Positions 9,748 to 15,302 of a stretch of DNA of 52,293 nt are shown in pieces. Under the pieces are notes generated by a model. That model did no database searches and had not been told where the DNA came from. It saw nothing but the letters and a program-made list of their open reading frames with translations. Position numbers and translations under genes: made by a program. How positions within the stretch are numbered: the first letter of the stretch is position 1; each line of letters starts with the position of its first letter. The stretch covers positions 1 to 52,293 of the forward strand of contig JAQXZA010000138.1 in NCBI GenBank assembly GCA_029226955.1. The letters run 5' to 3'. Source of the stretch: Clostridia bacterium (lineage in GTDB: Bacteria; Bacillota; Clostridia; Oscillospirales; Acutalibacteraceae).

Positions 9748-10626
9748 TTATTTGCTTTTTACTTTGAAAAAGCCTATTTTATTGTTATACATAAACATAT
9801 ATATTGCCATAGCACATATTACAAAATATCCTATAAAACTGTATATATCCGGTATTTCGCCGAAAAATATAAATCCTAAAAGTGTGGAAAAAATAATCTG
9901 CGAATAATCATAAACAGATATTTCTTTTGATGGTGCATAGCAATATGCCGCTGTAATTGAGAATTGTCCTCCTGTTGCGGCAAGTCCCGCACCAAGCAGA
10001 CATAACAACTGCCACCATTCCATAGGAACAAAATTAAATATTACATACGGAAGTATTACGATACAGGAAAATGCTGAAAAGAAAAATACAATAAATGCTC
10101 CTTTTTCCCCTCTTTGTCCAAGCAGTCTGACCATAGTATATGCAAGACCTGCACACATACCGCCGATAAATCCCATAATTGACGGAATTATATCGACATT
10201 CTGAAAACTCGGTTTTATTATAAAAAGGCTGCCTATAAATGCAATTAAAACCGCTGAACCCTGTGCAAATGTTACTTTTTCTTTGAGTATGAAGTATGAG
10301 AAAATAATTACAAAGAATGGCGACATTTTATTCAGTATAGACGCATCAGCAAGTGCTATATGGTCTATTGCATAAAAATTACACAGTATGCCAAATGTTC
10401 CAAATCCGGCACGAAGTAAAAGATACTTCATATTGCCTTTTTTCCAGTGAAAACCATTTTTGTTTTTTATCAATACAGCCAATGCAAAAAATACTGCTAC
10501 AAAATTACGGAAAAAACTTTTCTGTATTGACGGCAAATCTCCCGACATTCTCACAAACAAATTCATAAATGCAAAACAGAATGCCGAAATTATAATATAT
10601 ACTATCCCTTTATATTTCTTATTCAT
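9748..10626 (-). CDS. DMT-superfamily (EamA) transporter
   Basis: The 292-aa protein consists of about ten membrane helices arranged as two EamA repeats (about 5-140 and 150-285). Members of the drug/metabolite transporter superfamily export or import small metabolites, and the substrate cannot be read from the sequence. An AGGTG ribosome site precedes the ATG. The gene has its own promoter covered by a 30-bp near-perfect palindrome (10649-10678), suggesting tight control by an unidentified repressor. Confidence 0.85.
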   Translation of the reverse strand: MNKKYKGIVYIIISAFCFAFMNLFVRMSGDLPSIQKSFFRNFVAVFFALAVLIKNKNGFHWKKGNMKYLLLRAGFGTFGILCNFYAIDHIALADASILNKMSPFFVIIFSYFILKEKVTFAQGSAVLIAFIGSLFIIKPSFQNVDIIPSIMGFIGGMCAGLAYTMVRLLGQRGEKGAFIVFFFSAFSCIVILPYVIFNFVPMEWWQLLCLLGAGLAATGGQFSITAAYCYAPSKEISVYDYSQIIFSTLLGFIFFGEIPDIYSFIGYFVICAMAIYMFMYNNKIGFFKVKSK

Positions 10627-10648
10627 TTTTTAACACCTGATTTTTTAT

Positions 10649-10688
10649 TGTCATATTTAGTATATACCAAATATGACATATATTTCAA
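10649..10688 (-). promoter_or_regulatory. EamA gene promoter overlapped by a 30-bp palindrome
   Basis: On the minus strand TTGAAA (10683-10688), 18 nt, TATACT (10659-10664). The palindrome has arms TGTCATATTT (10649-10658) and AAATATGACA (10669-10678). Its 10-bp centre AGTATATACC is symmetric except for the outermost pair, so 14 of 15 positions match. It covers most of the spacer, the -10 and the probable start site, as a repressor operator would. Confidence 0.65.
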
Positions 10689-10702
10689 GCATTTTAAATG
10701 AA

Positions 10703-12634
10703 TTATGTTTCTTCTATATCATTGTGCTTGATTTCCAAATCGGGACAATGATGTTTATCCATTTTATGCCGTGCTTTTCTGTTTTCCACTGTATCAAAGA
10801 TTATCGAAAAGTCATAATCAGGCGGATAAAGTTCGGACGCAGGAACTTTGAGTTTTATACGATTGTGCTTTATCATCTTCTTTTTACCGTTAATCTGTAC
10901 TCCCAAAACTCCCATATCATCAGCAGTTTTAAAAATTATTCCCACCTTTTTATCGGGATAAACAATTACGCTGTCACCTATATTAAAACTTGCTGCGTGA
11001 GTTGAAACATTATTTTTGTTATTGATTTTCTGAATTTTCGGAACACTGACTGTTTTTATATCATTATTTTCCTTAACATCAGAAAAATCATATTTATTTG
11101 AATCCGAAATATAATTTCGGCTTTGTTTCACAGCATAATTTAACAAACGTTTAGGAAATCCAAGACGTTCAGCAATATAAAATGCACAGCTTTCTCCTGC
11201 CTCACCTATAATCAGTTTATACTGCGGTTCAAGTGTTTCTCTGTTGAATGTCATTCTGGCATTTATAACTTTTTCTGTATTTTCAGCATAACTTTTCACT
11301 TCAGAATAATGTGTTGTTGCAACAAAAAGACAGTTTCGATTTCTCAGTTCTTCAAGAATTGCTATTGCTATTCCCATTCCTTCTGCCGGGTCTGTTCCCG
11401 AACCAAGTTCATCAAGAAGTACAAGACTTTCTTTTGATGTGTTTTCAAGTATGCTTACAACATTTTTTATATGTGCCGAAAATGTTGATAAATTCTCGGA
11501 AATATTCTGACCGTCGCCTATATCGCACAGAACATTTCCATTCATACAAATATCGGCATTTTTGCACGGAATATGCAGTCCGCACTGAGCCATAATGGAA
11601 AACAGTCCAACAAGTTTGAGTGTTACAGTTTTCCCGCCTGTATTCGGACCTGTTATTACAATTCCGTTTATACCGTTTCCTATTTCAAAATCAATGGGAA
11701 CGCATACGTCACGGTTTAAAAGCGGATGTCTGCCCTCTGATATTTTTATATATCTTTGGGTGTTGATATTCGGAGAAATGGCTTTCATTTCCGCACTCAG
11801 TTTTCCTTTTGCGAAAGCGAAATCAAGATTTTCGATTATTTCAATATTACACAAAACCGTTTCCTTATATTTATATATCAATGCGGAAATGGAATATAAT
11901 ATTTTGTCTTGTTCTATGCTTTCATCTGTTTTCAGAACTTCAAGTTTTTCGGTAAGTTTAAGAATTGCCGAAGGTTCTATGAAATATGTTGTTCCTGTTG
12001 AAGATGTTGCTATCACCGAACCCGAAACTTGATTTTTGTATTCTTTTTTTACAGGCAAAGTATAATGTCCGTTTTTTACTGATACAAAACTATCATTGCA
12101 ATACTTCTTTTTTGATTTCAGAAGACTGTCAAGTTCGTTTTTAATACGAGTGTCCATATTTGAGATTTTTCGGCGAATATCTGAAAGTTCGTTTGTTGCT
12201 TCGGAGTCTATTTCATCACCTCTGATACAGCGGTTTATCTCATCATACACCTCGTCAAGAGTATCAATACTCATTCCATTATATGCCAAGCTGCAATCCG
12301 TACTTTCTGCCTTTTTCAGATAGCTTTTAAGCCTTCTGCAAGAGGCAATAAAACATTGAAATTTTCCGAGCTGTACAGGATAAATAAGTCCCTCTTTTTC
12401 AATTATATCCATAGTTGTTTTTACTTCGGAAATTTCAGGAATATGCGGATTTCCACAACAGTCAATTATTTTTCTTGTTTCATCGGTTTCGTTAAGTGCT
12501 TTTCTTAATTGCAGTTCATTTATATAGGGTTCAAGATTTAAAATTTTCTCTTTTGCATAACCGTTAACCGCAAACTCTGAAAGCATATTTTTAATAATGT
12601 CAAATCCAAGTATATTACAGTAATTTGTTTTCAA
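10703..12634 (-). CDS. MutS2-family ATPase lacking the Smr domain
   Basis: The 643-aa protein has the MutS2 arrangement: core/lever helices (about 1-290) with a clamp-like insertion, then the MutS-type ATPase with Walker A GPNTGGKT (329-336), the STFSAH signature (383-388) and Walker B LVLLDE (404-409). Family MutS2 proteins usually have about 780 aa and end in an Smr domain. This one stops after a short KOW-like region (about 570-625) and has no LDLHG or HGxG motif. MutS2 acts in suppression of recombination and, in Bacillus subtilis, in sensing and splitting collided ribosomes. The start is TTG with GGGAG 10 nt before it. A terminator lies just upstream. Confidence 0.85.
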   Translation of the reverse strand: MKTNYCNILGFDIIKNMLSEFAVNGYAKEKILNLEPYINELQLRKALNETDETRKIIDCCGNPHIPEISEVKTTMDIIEKEGLIYPVQLGKFQCFIASCRRLKSYLKKAESTDCSLAYNGMSIDTLDEVYDEINRCIRGDEIDSEATNELSDIRRKISNMDTRIKNELDSLLKSKKKYCNDSFVSVKNGHYTLPVKKEYKNQVSGSVIATSSTGTTYFIEPSAILKLTEKLEVLKTDESIEQDKILYSISALIYKYKETVLCNIEIIENLDFAFAKGKLSAEMKAISPNINTQRYIKISEGRHPLLNRDVCVPIDFEIGNGINGIVITGPNTGGKTVTLKLVGLFSIMAQCGLHIPCKNADICMNGNVLCDIGDGQNISENLSTFSAHIKNVVSILENTSKESLVLLDELGSGTDPAEGMGIAIAILEELRNRNCLFVATTHYSEVKSYAENTEKVINARMTFNRETLEPQYKLIIGEAGESCAFYIAERLGFPKRLLNYAVKQSRNYISDSNKYDFSDVKENNDIKTVSVPKIQKINNKNNVSTHAASFNIGDSVIVYPDKKVGIIFKTADDMGVLGVQINGKKKMIKHNRIKLKVPASELYPPDYDFSIIFDTVENRKARHKMDKHHCPDLEIKHNDIEET

Positions 12635-12660
12635 TTCTGTTTATCTCCCTTAACAAAAAA

Positions 12661-12694
12661 ATCTGTCGATACCGTTTCACAGATACCGACAGAT
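12661..12694 (-). terminator. Intrinsic terminator/attenuator immediately before mutS2
   Basis: On the minus strand ATCTGTCGGTATC pairs with GGTATCGACAGAT (13 bp, two G-U pairs) around an 8-nt loop and is followed by seven T (12654-12660). The mutS2 ribosome site starts just after the T-run, leaving no room for a promoter. Transcription of mutS2 must therefore read through this terminator. Confidence 0.85.
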
Positions 12695-12856
12695 AGTGTT
12701 CAGGAATATTATTTTGCTGTACCATTAAATAAAAATGCACAGCAAAACAAAGCTCATATAAAAAGAGCCAAAAACATATCAGTGTAAGTGTGAAAACGGT
12801 ACAGTTAATAAAGCATTTCCAAAAGAAATGCCTGTTACCGTTAATTATAATGAGGC

Positions 12857-12889
12857 TTATGCCTCTGATACCACACTTAATACTGACAC
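12857..12889 (-). CDS. Candidate 10-codon leader peptide of the mutS2 leader
   Basis: A GGAGG (12898-12902) stands 8 nt before GTG at 12889, which opens a frame encoding MSVLSVVSEA and ends with TAA (12857-12859) in the loop of the P2 hairpin. An in-frame ATG at 12904 would lengthen it to 15 codons but has no ribosome site. A second GTG (12891, other frame) would give only four codons. The frame covers much of the P1 5' arm, so translation would open P1. Confidence 0.4.
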   Translation of the reverse strand: MSVLSVVSEA

Positions 12890-12922
12890 ACTTTTATCCT
12901 CCATTAGTTAAGGTTTGTAACA

Positions 12923-12951
12923 AGTCTAACATAAACATTTATATTTGTCAA
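12923..12951 (-). promoter_or_regulatory. Promoter of the mutS2 leader RNA
   Basis: On the minus strand TTGACA (12946-12951), 17 nt, TAGACT (12923-12928). It starts 28 nt after the queA stop codon, so the leader can be made independently of queA. Confidence 0.7.
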
Positions 12952-12978
12952 CATAAAATAAAAATTATTGTATTGCAT

Positions 12979-14004
12979 TTATCCGATAAACATTGCGTCG
13001 CCAAAACTGAAAAATCTGTATTTTTCTTTTACAGCTGTCTTATATGCGTTCATTATATTGTCATATCCTGCAAATGCTGAAACAAGCATTATAAGTGTAC
13101 TTTCAGGCAAATGAAAATTCGTGATAAGTCCGTCAAGCACCTTAAACTCGAAACCAGGATAAATAAATATATCTGTCCAACCCTCGCTTGCTTTAATGCA
13201 GCCCTCCTTTTTTGCAACGGATTCAAGTGTGCGGCAACTTGTTGTTCCGACGGAAATTACACGACCACCATTTTTCTTTGTTTCATTGATTAAATCAGCG
13301 GTTTCTTGTGGCAAGTCATAATGTTCTGAGTGCATATGGTGCTTTGTGACATCATCAACTTTTACGGGACGAAAAGTTCCGAGTCCGACGTGAAGTGTAA
13401 CAAAACCTATTTTTACACCTTTGGCTTTGACTTTTTCTAAAAGTTCATTTGTAAAATGCAGTCCCGCTGTCGGTGCGGCAGCTGAACCTAACTCACGGCT
13501 GTAAACGGTCTGATAACGTTCCTTGTCTTTCAGTTTTTCGTGAATATACGGCGGTAATGGCATTTGACCGAGTTTATCCAGATTTTCATAAAAATTTCCC
13601 TGACAGTCAAAATCAATAATTCTGTTGCCGTCATCAGTGACATCAACAACAGTACAGGTCATAAGTCCGTCACCAAAAATAAACTTTGTGCCTATTTTTG
13701 CCTTTTTGCCAGGCTTTGCAAGAGCCTCCCACTGTTTATTTTCTATATGCCTTAAAAGCAAAAATTCCACATTTGCACCTGTTTCTTCCTTTACACCGTA
13801 AATTCTCGCCGGTAATACACGGGAATCATTGAGAATAAGACAATCTCCTTCATTAAGAAAATCTATTATATCGTAAAAATGCTTATGCTGCAATTCCCCT
13901 GTTTTCCTGTCTATTACAAGCATACGGGAACTGTCACGGGGTTCAACAGGTGTCTGTGCAATAAGTTCCTCAGGCAAATCATAATAAAAATCACTTGTTT
14001 TCAT
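12979..14004 (-). CDS. queA: S-adenosylmethionine:tRNA ribosyltransferase-isomerase
   Basis: QueA transfers and rearranges the ribosyl part of SAM onto preQ1 in position 34 of tRNAs, giving epoxyqueuosine. The 341-aa protein begins with the family signature [15 protein letters not shown] and contains [17 protein letters not shown] and the H-x-GLGTFRPV stretch. It follows the DUF4317 gene by 30 nt and is probably cotranscribed with it. Other queuosine genes (tgt, queG) are not in the window. No hairpin terminator follows; the next element is the promoter of the mutS2 leader. Confidence 0.96.
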
Positions 14005-14034
14005 TCCATATATATTCCTTTCATTTATCCTTAT

Positions 14035-15189
14035 TTAATTTTCAATGTTTGTTTGTGTTTCATCAAAGTGAATACTGACACCGTTCACTTCAACGCCTTC
14101 TTCTGCCCTTATCATTATATATTTGACTCCGTCAATAATTCGTGTTTCAACCATATAGCTTTGGTCTGGATTTACATTAACAGTAACAGAAGGGGTTTTG
14201 AGTTCAATCTTCTTTGTATCGATAATATTCTGTGGGCATATAACCGTATCGGTTCCGAATTGTGTGTCATATTTTTCTTCAAAAGCGGATATATGCGATT
14301 CTGACGCACCACAGGATTCAAGCACTTTTTTGACATCTTTTTTTGATAAAACCAATGGTTCTTCCTCTTTGTTGTTTTTGTGTTCGGTAATCATCTCGGA
14401 AATTGAATCGTGTACTGACTGTACAAATTCATAATTACATTCATCTTCAATAGTATCAGCAAGCAATGACTGAAATGTTTCTTTTTGCTCAGCAGCTGGC
14501 ATAGGAACAGCAGTGTTAAAAACAGTGCTGATTATTTCGGGGTGATTTTCAGTAATACTTCTTGTGTAATAAAGTGCATTGTATATATTTGTACTTCTGT
14601 CATCAAATGACGGAAACATAAAACCAATCTCAGCGGCAGAAACTGCACAGTCAGAACCTATGCTCTGAAAAGAGTTTTCACCGGCTAAAAATCCGAGTCC
14701 GCTTTTAGTTAATTTTACAGGACAAACACTGCACAGAATGTATTTAAATACTTCTGTTGAATCTTCCAGGTCTTCATCATTTTTTGAATAAGACGGCACA
14801 TCGTATTTATCACAGGCAAGAAGTATAAGATAATTTTCATCTGTAATATAAGTTTGTACGATTTTCTCATAAAGATTATGTACTGCCTCGTCATTTTCAA
14901 GTTCTGAATTTTTCAGTTCCATAAGCAGTTTATGTTCTTCACTGTCACTAACCTGTTGGGTTGAGAACTCTATGTCAATGAGATTTTTGCCGATTGTTCC
15001 TGACAGAGTCTTTTTCATAGTTTTAAGAAGCATTTCACTCGTTTCAAGCGGCATTATTCCAAGCGTCTGACTAAATTCTGATATTATCTCTTTTTTATTG
15101 TTTACATAACAACCACGAATTTTTGTAATATTGTTTTTGTCCTGTTTATATCTTCTTTTAATTTCTGAAATTTCTTTTTCTTTCATCAT
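14035..15189 (-). CDS. DUF4317 protein
   Basis: A soluble protein of 384 aa without signal peptide or membrane helix, matching the DUF4317 group by its N terminus (MKEKEISEIKRRY, then ITKIRGCYVNNKKE), which is common in Clostridia and has no known function. The reading frame also has a TTG at 15204, but the GAGG that would serve as ribosome site lies downstream of it (15195-15198), so the start is ATG 15189 or the adjacent ATG 15186. It leads the operon with queA. A TATAAT (15228-15233) with TG just before it marks its promoter. Confidence 0.75.
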   Translation of the reverse strand: MMKEKEISEIKRRYKQDKNNITKIRGCYVNNKKEIISEFSQTLGIMPLETSEMLLKTMKKTLSGTIGKNLIDIEFSTQQVSDSEEHKLLMELKNSELENDEAVHNLYEKIVQTYITDENYLILLACDKYDVPSYSKNDEDLEDSTEVFKYILCSVCPVKLTKSGLGFLAGENSFQSIGSDCAVSAAEIGFMFPSFDDRSTNIYNALYYTRSITENHPEIISTVFNTAVPMPAAEQKETFQSLLADTIEDECNYEFVQSVHDSISEMITEHKNNKEEEPLVLSKKDVKKVLESCGASESHISAFEEKYDTQFGTDTVICPQNIIDTKKIELKTPSVTVNVNPDQSYMVETRIIDGVKYIMIRAEEGVEVNGVSIHFDETQTNIEN

Positions 15190-15227
15190 ATTAACCTCTT
15201 TCAATATTTTTTGATAATTACAATCAT

Positions 15228-15233
15228 ATTATA
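15228..15233 (-). promoter_or_regulatory. -10 element of the DUF4317-queA promoter
   Basis: On the minus strand TGT-TATAAT forms an extended -10. No good -35 is seen, which extended -10 promoters tolerate. Confidence 0.5.
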
Positions 15234-15302
15234 ACAGGATTACTGAAAAACAACAAACGAATTTTTAATTTATAAATATTCGTCCTGTTTTTAACGCTGA
15301 TA

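Follow-up and report, generated by a model that had tools for sequence, protein, structure and literature searches.

A structured leader ahead of a MutS2-like gene

The window considered here, i.e., positions 1 to 52,293 (52,293 nucleotides, nt) of contig JAQXZA010000138.1 of a Clostridia bacterium from the Acutalibacteraceae (assembly GCA_029226955.1), carries on its minus strand a gene for a MutS2-like ATPase, preceded at 12951-12655 by a structured leader that contains a short open reading frame (ORF). The features of the locus are as follows:

12923..12951, minus strand: promoter, TTGACA (from 12951), 17 nt, TAGACT (ending at 12923); 10 of 12 consensus positions, with a TG before the -10 box
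12898..12902, minus strand: Shine-Dalgarno sequence GGAGG, 8 nt ahead of the GTG that opens the leader ORF
12857..12889, minus strand: leader ORF of 10 codons, GTG TCA GTA TTA AGT GTG GTA TCA GAG GCA TAA, reading MSVLSVVSEA*
12770..12895, minus strand: helix P1, the proposed anti-antiterminator, 14 + 9 = 23 base pairs (bp), 5' arm 12895-12871, 3' arm 12793-12770, closing two hairpins
12852..12865, minus strand: hairpin inside P1 whose loop contains the stop codon UAA of the leader ORF; none of 60 flank shuffles reaches its stability
12795..12842, minus strand: second, larger hairpin inside P1, from the predicted fold
12773..12796, minus strand: candidate antiterminator arm 1, which almost coincides with the P1 3' arm
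12709..12769, minus strand: two spacer hairpins (12769-12751 and 12750-12709), which would bring the antiterminator arms together
12675..12700, minus strand: candidate antiterminator arm 2, overlapping the 5' arm of the terminator
12655..12694, minus strand: intrinsic terminator, 13-bp stem (12694-12661) and seven T (12661-12655), -17.2 kcal/mol
10703..12634, minus strand: mutS2-like gene for an Smr-less ATPase of 643 amino acids, TTG start at 12634, Shine-Dalgarno sequence AGGGAG at 12650-12645

An earlier note on this DNA had described the promoter, a P1 stem of roughly 22 bp closing two hairpins, two further hairpins after it, and, directly before the ribosome site of an Smr-less mutS2 gene, a terminator with a 13-bp stem and seven T, all of which were recovered, P1 measuring 23 bp. 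Its argument that no promoter fits between terminator and gene also holds, since the Shine-Dalgarno sequence and the TTG start directly adjoin the terminator. The region 12925-12630 folds at -99 kcal/mol as compared with -59.3 +/- 4.6 for shuffled sequences (z -8.6; 0 of 200 dinucleotide shuffles as low), and the terminator hairpin taken alone is more stable than any of 1000 shuffles. A promoter scan of 10500-15300 returned 20 promoter-like sites against 18.8 expected by chance, hence the case for the window promoter is its position and not the scan. The upstream gene queA ends at 12979, 28 nt ahead of the -35 box of the leader, and given this gap (12979-12951) transcription running on past queA could enter the leader as well. 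In line with the earlier note, which had seen no match to the families known to it and no T-box core, comparison with Rfam gave no match at the gathering score, T-box included, in the whole window, and only seven chance-level hits over 12580-13000 (best E 0.39). A known riboswitch or a T-box was rejected on this lack of Rfam matches.

Relatives of the locus

A blastn search with the leader DNA over 64 genomes of the genus recovered the window's own copy alone and nothing in the other 63; relatives were therefore gathered by protein instead. In these 63 genomes the best protein matches were no better than E 1.6e-108, and the 29 that were fetched are full-length MutS2 proteins of 760-783 amino acids, which served as controls. 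A contig scan (21 loci) was combined with searches of the class, the family, the phylum and one small family. The gene is present in 30 of 391 genomes of the class (at E <= 1e-120), 5 of 200 of the family and 22 of 398 of the phylum, with the window's own genome in each of these counts, and in 8 of 22 genomes of the small family. Of the 75 distinct upstream regions, 45 are close loci, which score above 500 bits except for L021, a partial gene added to them, and 29 are distant; L088, very like L068, stands outside the counts; the identical copies L060 and L087 were dropped, as was L023 (29% identity), another MutS-like gene. The 45th close locus, L010, lies near a contig end that leaves only 148 nt upstream.

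The Smr-less mutS2-type family is patchily distributed across taxa. Distant relatives are found on plasmids of Cytobacillus spongiae (NZ_CP089998.1) and Paenibacillus sp. IHB B 3084 (NZ_CP013204.1), with 37-39% identity over 98% of the query and annotations as endonuclease MutS2 and mismatch repair protein MutS. Additionally, four contigs from a viral collection (L113-L116) encode MutS2-like proteins of 30-39% identity. Conserved neighbours were considered as a functional clue and set aside, as neighbourhoods differ among the 12 loci inspected: five of 20 neighbour proteins have no Pfam match, the others differ, and the only common neighbour is an acetyltransferase in both Diplocloster loci (L013, L020). 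The upstream neighbour at L055:4157-4852 contains the C-terminal domain of release factor 3, another translation factor.

A conserved leader peptide

A leader ORF of 7-14 codons comparable to that of the window is present in 44 of the 45 close loci. In an ORF scan, from which the ORFs were picked by eye, 41 of the 45 show one led by a Shine-Dalgarno sequence; in L020, L093 and L011 the Shine-Dalgarno sequence is weaker or the ORF lies further upstream. None of the 29 full-length mutS2 genes of the genus has such a leader ORF or a terminator. A profile built from 34 other distinct peptides, with the window left out, scores the window ORF at 13.8 bits, as against 6.6 bits for the best of 5000 shuffled upstream regions (none as good) and -2.9 bits for the best of the 29 controls (none as good). 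Likewise, when the peptide of each locus was left out in turn, no more than 5 of 100 shuffles did as well in 40 of 41 loci; the failure was L062, whose ORF had been entered in its longer form.

Typical peptides are MSVLSVKVINN, MLSVSVMVIFN, MSVLSVKEVCAN, MSVLSVMVIIN, MLSVVVMEKIAK and MLSVVGK. Thirty of the 44 leader ORFs have 11 codons; serine occupies position 5 in 31 and valine positions 6 and 8 in 36 and 28, respectively, and 32 end in asparagine. Valine is encoded by GTA, GTG, GTT and GTC, and serine by both TCN and AGY codons, while the peptides are alike over about 10 residues. This similarity despite varying codons suggests that the nascent chain itself plays a part. The shortened 7-codon leader MLSVVGK is found in the Lachnospiraceae loci L015, L017 and L018, where its stop codon lies inside a GGGTAAATAACCC hairpin. 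Beyond the close loci, short ORFs fitting M..V.N* (MSESVIN, MLEVVLN, MLGVVLN, MSGVVHN, MLVSVLN) occur in 14 of the 29 distant ones, against 0.05 expected and 0 of the 29 controls, for a pattern that was chosen after inspection of the ORF list.

No known drug-arrest motif was recognised in the leader peptides. There may be some likeness to ErmAL1 and ErmCL (I-A-V-V, I-F-V-I), which the literature consulted did not confirm. Stalling by phenicols and oxazolidinones depends on a penultimate alanine and, less so, on serine or threonine (PMC8987054); the serine before valine in the leader peptides would fit weak stalling of this kind.

Pairing of P1 and the candidate antiterminator in the window and its relatives

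The leader ORF shares its start and codons 1-6 with the P1 5' arm (12895-12871), and the overlap with an ORF whose peptide is conserved makes a ribosome-sensing attenuator likelier than a ligand-binding RNA. In the window's own P1, AGT GTG pairs with CACACT. A counterpart of P1 is seen in 31 of the 44 close loci, in which the codons for Ser5-Val6 face a CTTACAGA-type arm 63-117 nt past the stop codon (pairing in the long form of L062 being counted from codon 8 on). Their alignment, reduced to 16 distinct row types, has 93.8% paired cells, of which 9 are changed on both sides; when slid, 20-49% are paired. For paired cells, pair types and covariation score alike, no shuffle out of 500 equalled the alignment; for the count of pairs changed on both sides, 28 of 500 did. 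As to the partners, GTA usually faces TAC, GTT faces AAC in L092 and L094 but not in L063, and GTT GTA or ATT GTA is paired with CAA instead of CAG in L061, L012 and L014. The window is absent from this alignment because its arm differs; L015, L017-L019, L021, L064-L067, L085, L086 and L095 were likewise left out. The earlier note had held that a lack of conservation or covariation of P1-P3 in relatives would count against its reading: the core helix equivalent to P1 covaries in the 31 relatives, whereas conservation was not established for the larger inner hairpin or the two hairpins after P1. Around the stop codon, 20 of 41 loci, including the window, have a hairpin that no more than 3 of 60 flank shuffles match.

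The earlier note had also offered, as one candidate antiterminator, pairing of the P1 3' arm with the terminator over 8 of 9 bases. This pairing exists and is longer, i.e., about 20 bp with gaps between 12796-12773 and 12700-12675, although its duplex energy is at chance level (see below). When the ORF is masked as by a stalled ribosome, the P1 3' arm becomes available for pairing with 12700-12675 as long as the terminator is only half complete. In 18 of the 44 close loci a recognisable motif pair would let this same arm, commonly ACAGACTGCTTC, pair with the 5' side of the terminator, commonly GGAGCATTCTG. The alignment of 15 distinct rows is 77.8% paired (32-57% when slid), and one column has G-C in eight rows and A-U in five. 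One of 500 shuffles was as good in pairing and two in covariation, with 87 and 324 of 500 for two pair-count measures. Antitermination in the window itself is suggested by these relatives and by the geometry of the leader.

Terminators (at most -15 kcal/mol, within 170 nt of the start) are found in 30 of the 44 close loci including the window. Some loci, L006 and L016 among them, have two terminator-like hairpins in series ahead of the gene. Further, promoters matching at least 10 of 12 consensus positions lie within the 95 nt before the leader ORF in 28 of the 44, again including the window, against 1.92 expected by shuffling.

The Smr-less MutS2-like family

The 643-residue product scores 550.7 bits against the MutS2 model TIGR01069, for which the cut-off is 400, and MutS_V is its sole Pfam match, in keeping with the Smr-less MutS2 named in the earlier note. 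Its own genome also carries a full-length MutS2 (G000:C17:4144-5649, in an open frame of 855 amino acids), and the window gene is therefore a second, divergent paralogue. Across the family the Walker motifs GPNTGGKT and DELGSGTDP are conserved, and structure comparison shows the MutS core ATPase fold; relatives are annotated as endonuclease MutS2 or mismatch repair protein MutS. The Smr domain (PF01713) matches 0 of 71 family members and 4 of 4 full-length MutS2 controls, and MSSS, the Pfam model of the MutS2 SH3 domain, matches 0 of the 71. The region after the ATPase is shorter than in full-length MutS2 and ends in a conserved tail, ELYPEDYDFSIIFDTVENRKARH. Profile comparison of the C-terminus with the KOW region of the controls gives a weak match (27%), and in a fold comparison of the C-terminal barrel the KOW domain of MutS2 ranks first by a small margin only. 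The product is best read as a core ATPase of the MutS2 type that lacks the Smr domain and probably has a KOW-like barrel.

Proposed mechanism and alternative explanations

The ORF with its conserved peptide, P1 and the covariation of its counterpart, the terminator and the gene family, as established computationally above, lead us to consider it likely that 12951-12655 is a ribosome-mediated transcription attenuator of the Smr-less MutS2-type ATPase, the stall that induces it being most likely caused by a drug. The earlier note had proposed an undescribed cis-acting RNA, either a riboswitch or an attenuator; the cis-acting attenuator stands, and the leader ORF, which that note missed, makes a ribosome-sensing version the most likely. 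We infer that the ORF is translated and that ribosome stalling on it acts as the signal. In the unstressed state, ribosomes would translate the 10-codon ORF and leave, upon which P1 would form and lock its 3' arm, the terminator would form, and transcription would stop ahead of the gene. A ribosome stalled within the ORF would instead cover the P1 5' arm, the likeliest cause being an antibiotic that binds the peptidyl transferase center or the tunnel and arrests the conserved S-V-x-S-V peptide. The freed P1 3' arm could then pair with the emerging 5' arm of the terminator, allowing RNA polymerase to continue into the gene, whose MutS2-like product may split or rescue the stalled ribosomes. By analogy, the ATPase is probably an inducible ribosome splitter comparable to HflXr.

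Several observations weigh against this interpretation. As a duplex, P1 of the window is marginal (41 of 1000 shuffles as low), and its antiterminator is no better than chance (152 of 1000 as low). Even when the ORF is masked, folding favours the terminator state, at -66.8 versus -54.5 kcal/mol; since it is thus better by 12 kcal/mol at equilibrium, capture by the antiterminator must be co-transcriptional. Pairing was not in excess when duplexes were tested over 33 loci without reference to motifs (mean z -0.15 for the antiterminator and -0.88 for P1), with terminators chosen automatically, none being found in 8 of 41 loci and the choice in L055-L057 and L059 probably not being the last hairpin. 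Among the 44 close loci, 13, including the window, lack the CTTACAGA-type arm, and 14 lack a terminator by the test above. Fifteen of the 29 distant loci are without the short ORF, as is L096, a partial gene (45% identity, 466 bits) which has a promoter-like TTGACA/TTATAT directly before its ribosome site, as if expressed without the switch; the bit threshold groups it as distant, and were it counted as close, the leader ORF would be present in 44 of 46. The macrolide arrest motif R-L-R or +x+ (R/K-x-R/K) is also absent, MSVLSVVSEA having neither R nor K. Finally, ribosome binding by the product is uncertain because Smr is missing and MSSS matches none of the 71 members; in Bacillus subtilis MutS2, deletion of Smr strongly lowers ribosome binding (PMC10897456).

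Attenuators of amino-acid operons, such as the trp and ilv leaders, sense charged tRNA and thereby starvation. In a version of this scheme, the Val/Ser-rich ORF would sense its charged tRNAs, and the MutS2-like protein would be made as starved ribosomes stall. The 44 leader ORFs indeed contain 123 valine and 79 serine codons, and the same RNA would respond to any stall within the ORF. However, there is no run of a single codon, since S, V, L, K/M and I are mixed in the common pattern and N comes last in 32 of 44; nor is the product an enzyme of biosynthesis, and the patchy spread over taxa better fits a stress or resistance gene. We regard starvation sensing as unlikely.

It could also be that the leader senses slow translation in general, i.e., any block of elongation, without a peptide-specific drug arrest. 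The architecture requires merely a slow ribosome, and the 3-4-codon upstream ORFs (uORFs) of CplR, VmlR and LsaA (MRI, MIN, MAGN) are believed to stall in response to drugs that show little context-specificity, although the sequence of the VmlR uORF is reported to matter (PMC10201436). The likeness of the leader peptides over about 10 residues despite varied valine and serine codons speaks against this explanation, which we judge quite improbable. A ligand-binding riboswitch operating without translation would account for a leader with several hairpins and a terminator, but is very hard to reconcile with a conserved, Shine-Dalgarno-led ORF within P1, a distance from ORF start to gene that varies between 205 and 671 nt across relatives, and the absence of Rfam matches. 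That the leader is unlinked to the downstream gene, being either a free small RNA or no more than the region where the queA unit terminates, is barely credible: the end of queA is indeed close to the -35 box, but the leader has its own promoter-like site, accompanies the mutS2-like gene in differing neighbourhoods, and in its strict pattern occurs in 3 of 391 genomes (30 of which carry the gene), each time before this gene.

Implications

If the drug-stall-induced attenuator is as proposed, sequence alone predicts that Bacillota have an inducible system for ribosome rescue or tolerance. The function of this branch of MutS proteins becomes directly testable, and the leader may hold a new arrest peptide. 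There is, in our estimate, an even chance that, next to ABC-F and HflXr, the family represents a third lineage of ribosome-protection ATPases that drugs induce, spread horizontally, lacking Smr and independent of collision sensing, silent by default and switched on by drug-stalled ribosomes on an S-V-x-S-V leader, which would be a new drug-dependent arrest sequence. This raises the question of how a MutS2 without the collision-sensing Smr domain selects ribosomes. While the kind of switch is known, its link to a mutS2-type family and the peptide of that family were not found described: in the open PMC literature, no paper among those listed links MutS2 to a leader peptide or uORF, and the one listed with both MutS2 and 'leader peptide' is a Pseudomonas review that has each term once.

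Comparison with known systems

MutS2 (RqcU) of B. subtilis shares with the window protein the MutS core ATPase fold, and the C-terminal barrel of the latter is, by a small margin, most like its KOW domain; it differs in having Smr, whereas the window family has a shorter region after the ATPase, a conserved tail and the leader attenuator (PMC10897456, PMC11317155). The B. subtilis protein splits stalled ribosomes, and its loss leads to sensitivity to chloramphenicol, tetracycline and erythromycin; its ATPase matters most for survival of erythromycin, with Smr and KOW aiding the binding of collided ribosomes (PMC10897456).

Leader-peptide switches of hflXr, vmlR, cplR, msrD and erm guard genes whose products protect or rescue ribosomes from drugs. 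The attenuators of vmlR, cplR and lsaA (PMC10201436) and of msrD (PMC10314930) resemble the present leader in their uORF and terminator and in the mutually exclusive pairings proposed here, and such ARE-ABCF attenuators likewise precede a drug-protection ATPase that acts on ribosomes (PMC10201436, PMC10314930). They differ in that the ATPases are of the ABC-F type and the uORFs have 3-6 codons (MIN, MRI, MAGN, MYLIFM), as against 7-14, mostly 11, here. In the rli80 attenuator of hflXr (lmo0762) of Listeria monocytogenes, as in the present leader, the leader ORF, of 14 amino acids there, encompasses the anti-antiterminator, a terminator precedes the gene, and the encoded protein is homologous to a factor that splits ribosomes (PMC6310831). 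The Listeria system has an HflX-type protein and an R-L-R peptide, in contrast to the MutS2-type ATPase and S-V-rich peptide described here (PMC6310831). In terms of logic, HflXr is thus the nearest parallel to the ribosome-mediated attenuator proposed for the Smr-less MutS2-like gene, with the ABC-F attenuators coming next.
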